A DNA stretch of 38,801 nucleotides. It comes from Bacteroidota bacterium (GTDB taxonomy: Bacteria; Bacteroidota; Ignavibacteria; UBA10030; BY39). The number at the start of each line of letters is the position of its first letter. The first letter of the stretch is position 1. The stretch lies in contig JASEGV010000024.1 of NCBI GenBank assembly GCA_030017895.1, positions 1 through 38,801 of the forward strand. The letters are read 5' to 3'. Below, piece by piece: positions 15,290-38,790 of this stretch. The translations under genes and the position numbers were made by a program. The notes below the pieces were generated by a model that was not told where the DNA came from, searched no databases, and saw nothing but the letters and a program-made list of their open reading frames with translations.

Positions 15290-18118
15290 TTGGTTAACAA
15301 AGATACAGCATACAAGAAAATTTCGGAATTAGTAGAGCGATTTACCGACCAATACGAATCCTACAAAAAATCCGATTACAACGAAACGATGACACGACGT
15401 GATTTCATCGACCCGTTTTTCAAAGCGTTGGGCTGGGACATCGACAATGAACATGGTTACGCTGAATCTTATCGCGAAGTAATTCACGAAGACAGAGTAA
15501 AAGTTAGCGGAGCCACAAAAGCGCCCGACTACTCTTTCCGTTTGGTTGGCGGCAAGCGACTGTTTTTTGTTGAAGCCAAAAAACCAAGCCTATCGGTAAA
15601 AGAAGAAATTCCGTCAGCATATCAAATTCGCAGATATGGCTGGAGTGCGAAACTTCCCGTTTCCATCATCACGGACTTTGAGGAGTTCTCTGTTTATGAC
15701 TGCACCAAAAAACCCAAACCCACCGACAAAGCATCGACAGCAAGGATAAAGTTCATCACTTTTCAAGATTACCTGAAAGATTTTGATTTCATCTGGGAAA
15801 CTTTTAGCAAGGAGCGAGTGCTGAAAGGCAGTTTCGATAAGTTCGTGCAAAGCGACACTTACAAAAAAGGAACGGCTACCGTTGATAAAGATTTTCTCCA
15901 ATCGCTCGACAGGTGGCGGACATATCTTGCAACGAGTATTGCATTAAACAACCAAAAATTAGACGAGGATGAAATAAATTTTGCCGTTCAGCAGACGATC
16001 GACAGAATTATTTTCCTGCGCATTGCAGAGGACAGAAGCGTTGAGCCATACGGAAATTTGAAAGACGCCATCAAGCAGGGCGACTTTTACAAAAACCTTT
16101 TTGAGCAGTTCTGCAGAGCAGACGAAAAATACAATTCAGGTCTTTTCGATTTCAACAAAGACCAAATCAGCAAGCATCTGAAAATTGACAACAAAGTAAC
16201 GAAGACGATTATCAATGAATTGTATTATCCCGAATCGCCTTACGAATTTTCTGTTTTATCGGTCGAAATTTTAGGAAGCGCCTACGAGCAGTTTCTCGGA
16301 AAAGTAATCCGCATTACCCCTGCATACCACGCCAAAATTGAGGAAAAGCCAGAAGTCAGAAAAGCGGGAGGTGTTTATTACACGCCTCAATACATTGTGG
16401 AATACATTGTAAAAAACACAGTCGGAAAACTCATAAATTCCCCCTTTGAAGGGGGCGGGGGGATGTCACCCAAAGAAATCAGCAAAATAAAAATAGTTGA
16501 TCCGGCTTGCGGAAGCGGTAGTTTTTTGTTAGGGGCTTATCAATATCTACTGGACTATCACAAACATTATTACATTACTAATTCCCCTCTTGAGTCTGTC
16601 CCGCGTGCGGGGAGGGGAAAAAGGGGTGTGTCCAAACCGAGCAAAGAACAACTAAAGTTTCTAACCCCCGATGGCAACCTTACCACGAACGAGAAGAAGA
16701 GAATTTTGCTCAATAACATTTTCGGAGTGGACATCGATGTAAACGCGGTGGAAGTTACCAAGTTGAGTTTACTTTTGAAATGTATGGAGGGCGAAACAGA
16801 GGCGAGCATTAATCACCAGTTAAAAATGTTTCACGAAAGAATTTTGCCCGATCTTGAAAATAATATTAAGTGCGGGAACAGTTTAATTGATACCGATTTT
16901 TATGCCTCGCAATTGGATTTTGGGGAAGAGAACCTGTCTGCCGGTAAAGCTGGAAAAATAAAACCTTTCAATTGGCAGCGAGCATTTCCTGAAGTGTTTA
17001 AACAAGGTGGATTTGATGTTGTGATTGGAAATCCGCCGTATGTGAGAATACACGAATTAGAAAATAATTCAAAAGATTATTATAGAAAGAATTATTCATC
17101 GGCAAATAATCAATTTGATTTATATCAACTCTTTTATGAGAAAGGGTTAACGCTTCTTAATGAAAATGGAAAACTTGGTTTTATTACTTCAAATAAGTTT
17201 TGTATTACCAACTATGGAAAAGCATTAAGAGAGATAATCTTTAAAAAGTCGCTGATAGAACAAGTAGTTGATTGTTCATCATCCAATGTGTTTGGCAATG
17301 TATCAACTTATCCATTCATTTTTATTCTTAAAGTAAAACAACAAAAAAATAATACAGTAGAACTATACAAAGATTATAATGGGAAAATAGAATCTTTAGA
17401 TAAAGTTAGGCAAGACAAATTACTCAAAGGAGAAGAAGAAATATTTTCATTTCAATCTTTATCACCTTCATATAAAATAATTGAAAGATTAGAAAAAAAA
17501 TGTAAAACACAATTTGTTTCAGTTTACAGAGGCAGAGGAACTTCAAAAGATTTAATCAAAACTGGGACAAAAAAAAGCGTCACAAACAAAGAGGTTCTTA
17601 GATATAAACCATTTTCAGAAATATTATTTAGAGCTAAATCAAAATATCAAAATGATTATGAGCCAAAAATATTGATGAAAAAAATATGTTACAATATTGA
17701 ATGCAACATAGATGAGTCAGGAGAAATAAATCCAATTAATACAGTATATGTAGTAAAGCCAATAAATAAATCAATCAGCATTAAATATTTAATTGGTATT
17801 TTAAATTCAAAGTTGTTATCATTTTATACAAGAAAAAAATATGAAACCACGGGAATGAGAGGTGGTTATATTGAACTTAGGGTCTTTGAAGTTGAGAAAC
17901 TGCCAATCATTGAAGCCACAAATAATGAACAAATAGAAACCATAAAGTTCGTTGACCAGTTGCTAAAACTGAATGAAGAAAAAGCAGAAGCAAAACTGCA
18001 AACAAAAATAAACCAACTACAAAGCAAGATTGATTATTGCGAAAGCAGAATAAACGAAATCGTGTATCAACTTTACGGTTTAACAGCAGACGAAATAAAA
18101 ATTGTTGAAAAATCTTGA
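15290..18118 (+). CDS. Type IIG restriction-modification enzyme (fused nuclease, methyltransferase, specificity domain)
   Basis: One 942-residue chain should both cut and methylate DNA. The N-terminal nuclease carries a PD-(D/E)XK pattern: APDYSF (Asp80) and FFVEAKKP (Glu95, Lys97). A helical connector (~170-370) leads to an adenine methyltransferase with AdoMet motif DPACGSGSF (~405) and catalytic NPPYVR (~581). The C-terminal ~320 residues are the target recognition domain, with a coiled-coil end (LNEEKAEAKLQTKINQL). The start is TTG at 15290 behind GAGG, one base after the previous stop; the first ATG would cut into conserved sequence. Two in-frame palindromic insertions sit at ~382-392 and ~430-447. 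The recognition half is visibly more AT-rich than the rest, suggesting exchange of this module. Confidence 0.9.
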   Translation: MVNKDTAYKKISELVERFTDQYESYKKSDYNETMTRRDFIDPFFKALGWDIDNEHGYAESYREVIHEDRVKVSGATKAPDYSFRLVGGKRLFFVEAKKPSLSVKEEIPSAYQIRRYGWSAKLPVSIITDFEEFSVYDCTKKPKPTDKASTARIKFITFQDYLKDFDFIWETFSKERVLKGSFDKFVQSDTYKKGTATVDKDFLQSLDRWRTYLATSIALNNQKLDEDEINFAVQQTIDRIIFLRIAEDRSVEPYGNLKDAIKQGDFYKNLFEQFCRADEKYNSGLFDFNKDQISKHLKIDNKVTKTIINELYYPESPYEFSVLSVEILGSAYEQFLGKVIRITPAYHAKIEEKPEVRKAGGVYYTPQYIVEYIVKNTVGKLINSPFEGGGGMSPKEISKIKIVDPACGSGSFLLGAYQYLLDYHKHYYITNSPLESVPRAGRGKRGVSKPSKEQLKFLTPDGNLTTNEKKRILLNNIFGVDIDVNAVEVTKLSLLLKCMEGETEASINHQLKMFHERILPDLENNIKCGNSLIDTDFYASQLDFGEENLSAGKAGKIKPFNWQRAFPEVFKQGGFDVVIGNPPYVRIHELENNSKDYYRKNYSSANNQFDLYQLFYEKGLTLLNENGKLGFITSNKFCITNYGKALREIIFKKSLIEQVVDCSSSNVFGNVSTYPFIFILKVKQQKNNTVELYKDYNGKIESLDKVRQDKLLKGEEEIFSFQSLSPSYKIIERLEKKCKTQFVSVYRGRGTSKDLIKTGTKKSVTNKEVLRYKPFSEILFRAKSKYQNDYEPKILMKKICYNIECNIDESGEINPINTVYVVKPINKSISIKYLIGILNSKLLSFYTRKKYETTGMRGGYIELRVFEVEKLPIIEATNNEQIETIKFVDQLLKLNEEKAEAKLQTKINQLQSKIDYCESRINEIVYQLYGLTADEIKIVEKS
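16435..16470. repeat. In-frame palindromic insertion 1 within the type IIG gene
   Basis: CCCCCTT-tg-AAGGGGG (16440-16455) is followed by C and a run of six G. It adds residues N-S-P-F-E-G-G-G-G-M-S-P between VGKLI and KEISKIKIVDPACGSG. Its C/G-run composition is foreign to the surrounding AT-rich gene, and it falls in a linker just before the AdoMet-binding motif. Confidence 0.75.
16579..16632. repeat. In-frame palindromic insertion 2 within the type IIG gene
   Basis: A nested palindrome: TTCCCCTC (16582-16589) pairs with GAGGGGAA (16612-16619) around an inner CCCGC-gt-GCGGG (16600-16611). It encodes N-S-P-L-E-S-V-P-R-A-G-R-G-K-R-G-V between HKHYYIT and SKPSKEQLKFLTP. Like insertion 1 it begins with the codons for Asn-Ser-Pro, so the two appear to be related elements. 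Confidence 0.75.
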
Positions 18119-35613: not shown

Positions 35614-38600
35614 ATGCTTTTTAATAAAATAAATACAATTAAGAAAATTATCGAAATTCTAGACTCTGTCGATTATTCAAAGTATAGTCGCGCACAGAAT
35701 TATGAAAGATATGATATAGAAGCGCATGCTGATGAACGAAAACTAATTCAACCTATTCTATTCACAAAATTCCTTGAACAGGTTCTTGGTTTTAAGTTAG
35801 GCGAAACAGTCTGGGCTGAACAAAGTGAAGAAGGAAACGTTCCAGATTTTCTTCCTGTTGATACTTACACTCACTCATTCCTTTTCGACACGAAATCGAC
35901 CGCTGCCACAGAGCAGACGATTAAGAAGCACATCCCTCAAATTAGACGATACATCCGTTTCTACAAAGTCCGATATGGTGTTTTGACGAACATGAGAGAA
36001 GTAGATGTCTATACCGAGGATTCGCATGATGAGTTACCCGAATTCAATTTTAATTTTTTGACACTTTACAAAGACTTCAAGCATAACAAAAAGACCATTC
36101 TTGAGAAAGAAAATACTAAAAAATTTATTCACTTTGTAGAGACCTTCTCGTTCTGTCCATTAGATGTGGAAAAGAAAATCCAGCGAATTTGCAAAAGTTC
36201 CGCTTGGATTGGTAATGAAACTCTAAAGGTAGATCACCTCACACGAAAATTAAAACAAATCGTAGAATGGTTTGAACAAGATGCATTAAACCAAAAAACA
36301 AACGTTGAGCTTTTCGTGGAACATAACCCTGATTTAGCAAAAGATATAGTGCGGGAGCTTGATTTCATCAGCAAAGAGATTAACAGGTCACTCGCAGATG
36401 CGCAACTATCTGCTACTCCAACGCGCTTGCATGAATATCTAAATGCTTCGCCTAAAACAACTCAGGCAAGATCGATGAAAATTTATTTTTATCGTGTGGC
36501 TTATTTCTCGATGGCACGCATTCTTCTTGCACGCATGTGGGAAGATATCGGCTTCATTGAATCTACTCTCACAGATGGAGGATTCGAGAAATGGTATAAG
36601 AATCTTGGAAAGGAAATCCGTCGCGTACTGAGCCAATCATTCCAATTTGCCGGAGAGAAATACCAATGGTTGTACCGCACGCCAAATAACTACACATGGT
36701 ATGAGCCGAACGAAACGATACTTGTTGATTCACTTTATGAGCTTGCCAACTTTTATCTCGGTGCGTTGAAAGATGATGCGCTGGGAATGATATACGAGCA
36801 AGAGCTTGATATTATAGACAAACAAAATAAAGGACAGTACTACACAGATCGCACTGTTATACGTTTCATGTGGGACCGGGTTGGATTCACGAATAACGAT
36901 GCTTTCTTCCGTGAAGATAAGAAAAAACGAGAACCGAAGAAAATTTTAGATGTTGCCACCGGATCTGGCGGATTTCTAGTTGAAGCAGCACGACGAATAA
37001 GGGAGTTTACAACGCCAAAGGAAAAAATGTTTGAGGATGTGTTAGCAATTCGTACTGCAATACTGTCTGGGATATTTGGAATGGAAATATCTCCCTTCCC
37101 TTATTACATAACAGAAATCAATCTTCTTATTCAACTAACTCCAGTAATTAGAGAAATGTCGATTCGAAAGCAAGCGATAATTAAGGAAGGGACTCCAATA
37201 GCTGTTGTTCAGGGAGATTCACTTACTCTTTACAACGATGCTAAGGAGTTGTTTGTAAAAGAAGAAACAGGAACTTACAACGTCGGAAATCATCTTATCC
37301 GGTTCGGGCGCGACATAGCGAAACAGAAAATCTTTGATAAAATCTACTCATCGAACGATTTTGATTACTGTCTTGCCAATCCTCCTTACATTCGTGAAGA
37401 TGACCACAAAGAATTATTCAGGAGAACAAAGAATCTGCCGATTGGGCGAGAATTGTACCAAGGCAAGATGGACTATTACCATTTCTTCGTCGAGCTTGGA
37501 CTCTCAAAGCTTCGGGATGGTGGAAAACTCTGTTTCATTACTACATCCTACTGGCTGCAGGCAGTTGGGGCAAGCAACTTACGCCAATATATTCTCGATA
37601 ATGCTATCGTCAAAGAAGTTATTGATTTTGGACCGACAAAGCTTTTTGAAAGCGCTAAAGGTCAATTTAACGTTATCTTTTTGATGGAAAAGAAAAACGG
37701 CAAACATAATCTTGATGGAAGAAAGAAAAATACAATCAAAGTTGTACGAGTGAAGGAGCTGTTCTCTCCGAATCTTCAGGACAACATTCCCAAACTTTTC
37801 AAACATCTTTCCGAACATGTTGACAGGAAGGAATATTCTGATAAATACATTGAGGTGTACGACAGCGCAACACAGCAAGGCGATTTAACTGAAAAAGAGT
37901 GGCATTTATTCGTTAATAAAAAACACAAGAAAACGTTGAATGCAATTGAGGAAGCGGGAAAACCGTTGGAAGAATTTTGCACTATCAATCAAGGATTGTT
38001 AAGTGGTGCCGATGTTGTTACGAACAATAACATTGAATTGATTCATCAGAAAAATATTGAAGAATTTAATATTAAAGTTGGTCAGGGTATTTTTTATCTG
38101 GAAGAAAAGGAAGTTGCCGCTTTGCTTTTAGAAGATAAAGAAAAAGAATTTATCAAACCAATCTACAAAGCCTCTGAAATTACGAATTATCTACCTTCTT
38201 CACAATACATGATAGACCTTTTTTGTTTGTATATAAACAAGGACACTGTTGTGAAGAATTATCCTCGAGTTTTCAAACATCTACAAAAATATAAAACGGT
38301 CTTAGAAAATAAGCGCGAGGCACAAGAAGGGAAGTTACCGTGGTACTCAATGCATTGGGCAAGAACCAACGATTTATTTGCTGGAGAAAAGATTATTGTA
38401 TCCAAGTGGCCAGCTTCAAATGATTTTGGTTACAGTGATCAGGATTACTATTCCGATGCAAATACATACCTCATCAAACTCAAGAACCATCCAAAGGAGT
38501 CTCTCAAATACATACTTGGTGTTCTTAATTCCAAAGTTATTGCTTACTACTTTGAGCAGAAGGGTAGCAAGCGCGGCGATAAATATTTCTTCCCCAAAGA

Positions 38601-38790
38601 ATTTTGTAAGACGCTGCCTATAAAACCGATAAAGACAAAAGAAGAACAAAAACTCCATGATAAGATTGTCGAGTTGGTGGATGAGATGATCGAAGAACGG
38701 AAGAAACTTCTGGAGCATACACGTTATATCTCCGATCCCCAGTTTATTAAGGGCAGTTCCAAAAATTCAAATATAAGTTTAGTGTTATAG
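35614..38790 (+). CDS. Type IIG restriction-modification enzyme, second system
   Basis: A 1058-residue single-chain nuclease-methyltransferase. The N-terminal PD-(D/E)XK pattern is VPDFLP (Asp78) and FLFDTKST (Asp92, Lys94). A long helical connector (~150-420) ends in NKGQYYTDRTVIRFMWDRV, the segment before type I/IIG methyltransferase domains. The AdoMet motif is LDVATGSGGFLVEAA (~444) and the catalytic motif NPPYIRED (~589). Residues ~640-1058 hold the target recognition part, with WHLFVNKKHKK, ILGVLNSKVIAYYFEQKGSK and a C-terminal helix. It is unrelated at sequence level to the 15290 enzyme beyond the shared plan. It starts 25 bases after the broken ATPase gene and is complete. Target site unknown. 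Confidence 0.9.
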   Translation: MLFNKINTIKKIIEILDSVDYSKYSRAQNYERYDIEAHADERKLIQPILFTKFLEQVLGFKLGETVWAEQSEEGNVPDFLPVDTYTHSFLFDTKSTAATEQTIKKHIPQIRRYIRFYKVRYGVLTNMREVDVYTEDSHDELPEFNFNFLTLYKDFKHNKKTILEKENTKKFIHFVETFSFCPLDVEKKIQRICKSSAWIGNETLKVDHLTRKLKQIVEWFEQDALNQKTNVELFVEHNPDLAKDIVRELDFISKEINRSLADAQLSATPTRLHEYLNASPKTTQARSMKIYFYRVAYFSMARILLARMWEDIGFIESTLTDGGFEKWYKNLGKEIRRVLSQSFQFAGEKYQWLYRTPNNYTWYEPNETILVDSLYELANFYLGALKDDALGMIYEQELDIIDKQNKGQYYTDRTVIRFMWDRVGFTNNDAFFREDKKKREPKKILDVATGSGGFLVEAARRIREFTTPKEKMFEDVLAIRTAILSGIFGMEISPFPYYITEINLLIQLTPVIREMSIRKQAIIKEGTPIAVVQGDSLTLYNDAKELFVKEETGTYNVGNHLIRFGRDIAKQKIFDKIYSSNDFDYCLANPPYIREDDHKELFRRTKNLPIGRELYQGKMDYYHFFVELGLSKLRDGGKLCFITTSYWLQAVGASNLRQYILDNAIVKEVIDFGPTKLFESAKGQFNVIFLMEKKNGKHNLDGRKKNTIKVVRVKELFSPNLQDNIPKLFKHLSEHVDRKEYSDKYIEVYDSATQQGDLTEKEWHLFVNKKHKKTLNAIEEAGKPLEEFCTINQGLLSGADVVTNNNIELIHQKNIEEFNIKVGQGIFYLEEKEVAALLLEDKEKEFIKPIYKASEITNYLPSSQYMIDLFCLYINKDTVVKNYPRVFKHLQKYKTVLENKREAQEGKLPWYSMHWARTNDLFAGEKIIVSKWPASNDFGYSDQDYYSDANTYLIKLKNHPKESLKYILGVLNSKVIAYYFEQKGSKRGDKYFFPKEFCKTLPIKPIKTKEEQKLHDKIVELVDEMIEERKKLLEHTRYISDPQFIKGSSKNSNISLVL

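Follow-up and report, generated by a model that had tools for sequence, protein, structure and literature searches.

Two in-frame palindromic elements in a type IIG restriction-methyltransferase gene and their likeness to the inverted ends of DUF559 nuclease units

Repetitive extragenic palindromic sequences (REPs) are usually tied to REP-associated tyrosine transposases (RAYTs). In-frame REPs have been published, including copies inside RAYT genes themselves and inside DNA repair genes (PMC6006769, PMC3733652). Two short palindromic elements, here called E1 and E2, lie in frame in a type IIG restriction enzyme/methyltransferase gene of a Bacteroidota bacterium (class Ignavibacteria; assembly GCA_030017895.1). 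The window, i.e., the whole stretch of 38,801 nt that was analysed, is one contig (C24) of this 3.2-Mb genome of 176 contigs. E1 and E2 are probably solo REP-like palindromes inserted in frame in tolerant linkers of the enzyme, and the same kind of element forms the inverted ends of units that carry a DUF559 (PF04480) nuclease gene.

Table 1. Features of the window (positions within it) and genes elsewhere that hold a DUF559 unit in frame.
Feature	Position or locus	Strand	Basis or composition
Host gene: type IIG restriction enzyme/methyltransferase, 942 aa	15290..18118	+	Open frame, Pfam, PADLOC, alignment with 14 relatives
E1, solo palindromic element	16436..16466	+	Hairpin CCCCCTTTGAAGGGGG and foot GGGGGGATGT; between motifs X and I
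E2, solo palindromic element	16580..16631	+	Extra inner hairpin CCCGCGTGCGGG, foot GGGGTGTGT; just after motif I
Further large restriction-modification-type methyltransferase gene	35614..38790	+	PADLOC MTase_II / REase_MTase_IIG
In-frame host: MetH	L288, L293, L245, L251		Pfam
In-frame host: LeuRS	L277, L279, L299		Pfam
In-frame host: methylmalonyl-CoA mutase	L250		Pfam
In-frame host: UvrD	L256		Pfam
In-frame host: HsdR	L280, L281		Pfam
In-frame host: HsdM	L285		Pfam
In-frame host: Type ISP	L275		Pfam
In-frame host: N6_N4 methyltransferases	L276, L303, L234		Pfam
In-frame host: GH2	L226, L227		Pfam

The product of the host gene contained the Pfam domains HSDR_N, Eco57I, N6_Mtase and TaqI_C and was assigned by PADLOC to REase_MTase_IIG (E 4e-205). 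Its motifs X, I and IV were intact when aligned with the 14 relatives, and the two elements flanked motif I (DPACGSG, at about residues 404-410), E2 following directly after the motif I helix. Both are palindromes of a C-run and a G-run, both open by encoding N-S-P, and both preserve the reading frame; E1 (AATTCCCCCTTTGAAGGGGGCGGGGGGATGT) encodes NSPFEGGGGM and E2 (AATTCCCCTCTTGAGTCTGTCCCGCGTGCGGGGAGGGGAAAAAGGGGTGTGT) encodes NSPLESVPRAGRGKRGV. An AlphaFold2 model of the host protein predicted both peptides in coil and, being weak (mean pLDDT 67), was used only for that placement. Cores of the E1/E2 type were absent from the second large methyltransferase gene of the window (Table 1).

A relative with 64% protein identity (G025, locus L126) has neither element. 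Compared with this sequence, E1 is a net insertion of 21 nt and E2 corresponds to a 46-nt gap plus 8 nt, with continuous flanks on both sides. Among type IIG homologues, GC hairpins with at least seven paired bases clustered in two places, the stretch from motif X to motif I and the approach to motif IV (NPPY), and were sparse in the rest of the gene. These insertion sites are hot, and some relatives carry palindrome-type peptides of different sequence there (SPPSQGGDKEA, SPPYKGGDVRRT and SSPQRGEVSRRDRG), a short clean linker being present in G025, G008 and others. The initial annotation, which had placed two in-frame palindromes in linkers on either side of the S-adenosylmethionine-binding motif, was thus borne out, as was its expectation that alignment with homologues would reveal clean insertions. 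Unrelated homologues with the same residues were not found, because the palindromes that relatives have at the E1 site are different ones. As a separate observation, the type IIG paralogues L005 (contig C38), L147 and L308 hold a large Gly/Ser/Asn-rich insert at the E1 site with no obvious palindrome; DUF559 was considered for this insert and rejected, the stretch being of low complexity.

The core 20-mer of E2, AATTCCCCTCTTGAGAGGGG, was found in more than 119 stretches of 257 Gb of public genomes, where about 0.5 would be expected by our arithmetic, and reversed-pattern controls gave 0 matches in 150 genomes. Given this excess, the empty controls and the relative lacking both elements, E1 and E2 go beyond chance. 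Carriers among the matches listed included Bacteroidota, Ignavibacteria, Nitrospinota, Planctomycetota, Desulfobacterota, Zixibacteria and others; nearly all copies listed were followed by the foot GGGGTGTGT, from which a short spacer or a second hairpin of variable sequence separates them, and E2 belongs to this same family. By a mechanical test, in which some open reading frames (ORFs) may not be genes, 19 of the 194 element copies scanned in the retrieved loci lay inside long ORFs. Hosts of solo copies confirmed by Pfam included an Eco57I-type methyltransferase (L098), a PrmC-like methyltransferase (L108), a class-V aminotransferase (L170) and sorting-domain proteins (L037, L090, L113). Many E2-type copies were seen in a Nitrospinota metagenome-assembled genome (L085, L064, L038, L107), with GGCCGAAGGCC, GGCCGGAGGCC or GGCCTTTAGGCC as inner hairpin, the stem kept and the loop varying. 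Separately, the retrieved stretches (L345, L346, L348) of the 37.9-kb viral-collection contig IMGVR_UViG_3300025736_006128 contained 13 E1-type cores that all point the same way, no two of them sharing the central hairpin that precedes GGGGGATGT; one of them, within a predicted ORF, is read as EEHPPPPLRGGTPFKGGIRDM.

Many copies of the element adjoin DUF559 genes. Inverted E2-type pairs enclose such a gene at L077, L123, L025, L054 and L041, the exact E1 core TCCCCCTTTGAAGGGGG forms inverted pairs around DUF559 genes at L077:1142-1581 and L267:1419-1865, and the nuclease reading frame can extend into the right-hand element. Gaps between inverted pairs with inward feet fell into a short class of 15-45 bp (15 pairs) and a long class of 373-480 bp (5 pairs), with one pair at 673 bp. 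When the L077 region was compared by BLAST with 50 Pontibacter genomes, long matches at other loci started at about position 634-657 of the query, where the left element has its outer end, and stopped at position 1079-1082, the outer end of the right element, as would be expected of a mobile unit whose ends are defined. Scoring inverted repeats directly on the DUF559 flanks was uninformative, since the elements of different loci are alike and spoil the null, and was replaced by the presence of GC hairpins (arm at least 7, loop 3-10) in both 150-bp flanks. Two-sided hairpins were found at 15 of the 29 best-scoring DUF559 loci (further samples, 8/30 and 10/27), against 2/763 random positions, 0/48 other small ORFs, 0/600 random window positions and 2/24 Y1_Tnp loci, where the hairpins were unrelated to the element (Fisher test for 15/29, p = 5e-22 against random positions and 1e-3 against Y1_Tnp).

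Within the source genome, a strict pattern, covering near-consensus copies only as did the pattern used for relatives, recovered three copies: E1, E2 and one on contig C38. An initial pattern, TCCCCYYYTTGA, had one pyrimidine more than the element and no genome matches. The C38 copy is in frame in a type IIG paralogue, just before motif IV (FPHIF-SPLERGRRGVS-DCGFDAVVGNPPY), so that all three strict copies are in frame within type IIG genes. The sole assembled DUF559 gene of this genome (contig C18) terminates in a hairpin built in the same way, a divergent version of the element, at which the contig stops. Contigs C69 and C86 each share an overlap of exactly 55 bp with the end of C18 and then diverge, hsdM genes lying near the junctions (L243, L355, L356). 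Because the two share these terminal bases and continue differently, the right end of the unit is present at least twice in the genome, and the assembly is broken at a repeated DUF559 unit. In our reading, the frame upstream of the C18 unit would begin like an HsdM N-terminus (MLTDPQLKSKVDALWDKFWSGG). Taking the type IIG copies and the hsdM neighbours together, every locus of the element that was found in this genome lies in or close to a DNA methyltransferase gene, which may reflect co-transfer and not targeting, since restriction loci also move between genomes. The initial annotation had envisaged a mobile or amplifying repeat resembling the Rickettsia palindromic elements: the third strict copy shows that the repeat does occur elsewhere in the genome, and the in-frame behaviour agrees with the likeness. 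The spread of the family over many phyla and the role of its cores as inverted ends of DUF559 units go beyond that annotation. Amplification in the source genome itself did not hold up, with only three strict copies besides the divergent one at the end of the DUF559 gene.

DUF559 domains were also found within many long open frames of other genes, mostly bordered by palindrome-encoded peptides (Table 1). By the strict rule, hairpins stood on both sides in 12 of the 22 in-frame cases, and visual inspection of the remainder revealed imperfect or short-loop hairpins in many. At L278, the unit lies just before motif IV of an MmeI-like methyltransferase, and the frame seems lost downstream. An intein splicing domain was recognised by Pfam, below the curated cut-off, in L252 only (G162:C58), an intein-like frame in an N6_N4 DNA methyltransferase with DUF559 at the position of the homing nuclease and no palindromes at its ends; none was found in the other 19 in-frame proteins scanned. 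As most units, unlike inteins, have no splicing domain, the host protein keeps the extra peptide.

In a DUF559 tree of 99 rows, based on a short alignment and with many open forks, 12 in-frame proteins formed one clade (100/98) across LeuRS, MetH, methylmalonyl-CoA mutase, UvrD, GH2 and M23 genes, and a small clade (91/90) contained restriction-modification hosts only (Type ISP, HsdM, Mod, MmeI). The in-frame versus free state changed 6 times on this tree against about 20 in shuffles (minimum 16), and the foot type 13 times against about 23 (minimum 16). Members of the in-frame clade (L226, L227, L245, L288, L293, L277, L279, L256) were seen to share, despite their different host genes, an extra conserved N-terminal stretch directly before the nuclease domain, (Y/W)(Q/E)TADPxLY or GYMTGGN. 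The residues E24, D53, E64 and H70 were invariant in 11 DUF559 proteins, and a predicted structure (pLDDT 90) matched 3r3p, the I-Bth0305I homing endonuclease domain (E 8e-4), and 3hrl.

The likely route to the present arrangement, which is inferred, is that a DUF559 nuclease, acting in cis or in trans, cuts the element or a target DNA, and that repair then copies the element or the whole unit to new places. In conserved genes, selection would let only in-frame insertions in flexible linkers survive. E1 and E2 would then derive from DUF559 units or have been moved in trans by them, as end-only derivatives comparable with miniature inverted-repeat transposable elements (MITEs) or solo long terminal repeats, and their insertion may date from the present host or from a previous carrier of the mobile restriction gene. 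This account is supported by the clean gaps in the empty relative, the wide family with its constant foot, the inverted pairs of E1 and E2 type around DUF559 genes, the sharp ends of the Pontibacter copies, the two classes of gap, the excess of two-sided hairpins, the in-frame units in many hosts, the fit of foot type and in-frame state to the DUF559 tree, and the match to I-Bth0305I. Several observations weigh against this account. No target-site duplication was found and no movement was observed. The DUF559 loci of the hairpin test were the best-scoring matches and no random draw, and about half or more of the DUF559 genes fail the strict two-sided test. Many solo copies lie far from any DUF559 unit in their genomes, and PF04480 has no match in a Mucilaginibacter genome (G150) that carries the element. 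Compared with six congeners without the unit, the GH2 unit took the place of about 30-40 bp of linker, a replacement and no simple insertion. Finally, single-strand folding of E1 was no better than that of shuffles (z -0.85/-0.4), that of E2 exceeding most of them (z -2.6/-2.9); with one element failing and the other passing, folding by itself is weak evidence.

The most serious competitor, although unlikely, is that another agent moves the palindromes and that DUF559 nucleases home into them or shelter between existing ones as passengers, so that nothing causal would tie E1 and E2 to DUF559. In favour of this, solo copies are far more numerous than DUF559 units, the Mucilaginibacter genome has the element without a PF04480 match, and invasion of repeats and conserved genes is a known general habit of homing nucleases. 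However, insertion into a single palindrome would leave half-palindromes, whereas complete hairpins were found on both sides; unit copies end sharply at the outer ends of the elements, and the type of foot tracks the nuclease tree.

A lower probability still is given to REPs of the ordinary kind, which a Y1 (RAYT) transposase would have mobilised, inserted in frame as described for some RAYT subclasses. The hairpin-plus-foot form, the inverted pairs and the in-frame insertions all agree with published REPs, and Y1_Tnp genes are present in most element-bearing genomes tested, but the element was found in the flanks (up to 1.5 kb) of none of 30 Y1_Tnp loci, mainly from element-bearing genomes, two Lutibacter genomes carrying the element have no Y1_Tnp match, and neither E1 nor E2 contains a GT[AG]G (GTAG/GTGG) or CGTC tag, their feet being ATGT and GTGTGT. 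It is hardly credible that the elements are the product of local expansion, GC-rich sequence arisen by chance, a terminator or other RNA element, or an assembly artefact in the gene. The poor folding of E1 would fit such an origin, but near-identical sequences with a constant foot recur in many phyla, Rfam gave no match, the third copy keeps the frame of a different type IIG gene that lies on a separate contig, and the gaps in the empty relative are clean.

Solo palindromes and DUF559 units might together represent a class of mobile element absent from the literature searched, a tentative proposal to which we give somewhat less than even weight: a DUF559 nuclease gene between inverted palindromes would spread from phylum to phylum in three forms (autonomous units, MITE-like pairs and solo ends), and some lineages would have specialised as permanent, unspliced in-frame fusions in essential or restriction-modification genes. 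Neither a link between DUF559 and palindromic repeats nor the core sequences of the element were found in open-access papers; the search was mostly of open-access literature, with most subscription papers and preprints outside it, so the novelty of the link is provisional. The nuclease family DUF559, common and functionally uncharacterised, is seldom named in open-access papers; one member, from Caulobacter, has been linked to DNA damage (PMC12907096). With a partner repeat and a mobile life style, the family would acquire a likely role. Host proteins would gain new peptides, or a whole nuclease domain, from unspliced fusions, and there would be a non-transposase route both for the spread of REP-like palindromes and for new segments of bacterial proteins. 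The reason why restriction-modification genes, MetH and LeuRS have extra peptides in some lineages would become testable, fused genes with empty relatives serving as natural experiments.

E1 and E2 probably differ in sequence from the Rickettsia palindromic elements of Ogata and Claverie. The likeness lies in a frame-keeping palindromic insertion into unrelated genes that adds a peptide (PMC3733652), whereas the present elements are shorter, occur in many phyla, are tied to a nuclease gene and have few copies in the source genome. With REPs, REPINs and their RAYTs, the family shares a short hairpin with a conserved foot, inverted pairs and a mostly intergenic location with some in-frame copies (PMC6006769, PMC3733652); a repeated palindrome with a constant foot was seen across genomes, with only three strict copies in the source genome. 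Unlike that system, it has no GT[AG]G or CGTC tag and no linked Y1 transposase was found, the linked gene being DUF559. The EDxHD/Vsr-like homing endonucleases (I-Bth0305I; PMC3943268) resemble the units in the DUF559 fold (3r3p), the conserved catalytic residues and in-frame residence in conserved genes, and one DUF559 domain is itself the nuclease of an intein-like frame (L252). The other in-frame units examined have no intron or intein splicing domain and, unlike homing endonucleases and inteins, DUF559 units have palindromic ends, solo end-only copies and many host genes; E1 and E2 are far too short for inteins. Compared with MITEs, which derive from DNA transposons and are non-autonomous, the presumed enzyme is a nuclease and no transposase, and no target-site duplication was seen, but the layout is alike: end-only inverted pairs with gaps of 15-45 bp occur alongside full-length units of 373-480 bp that have the same ends.
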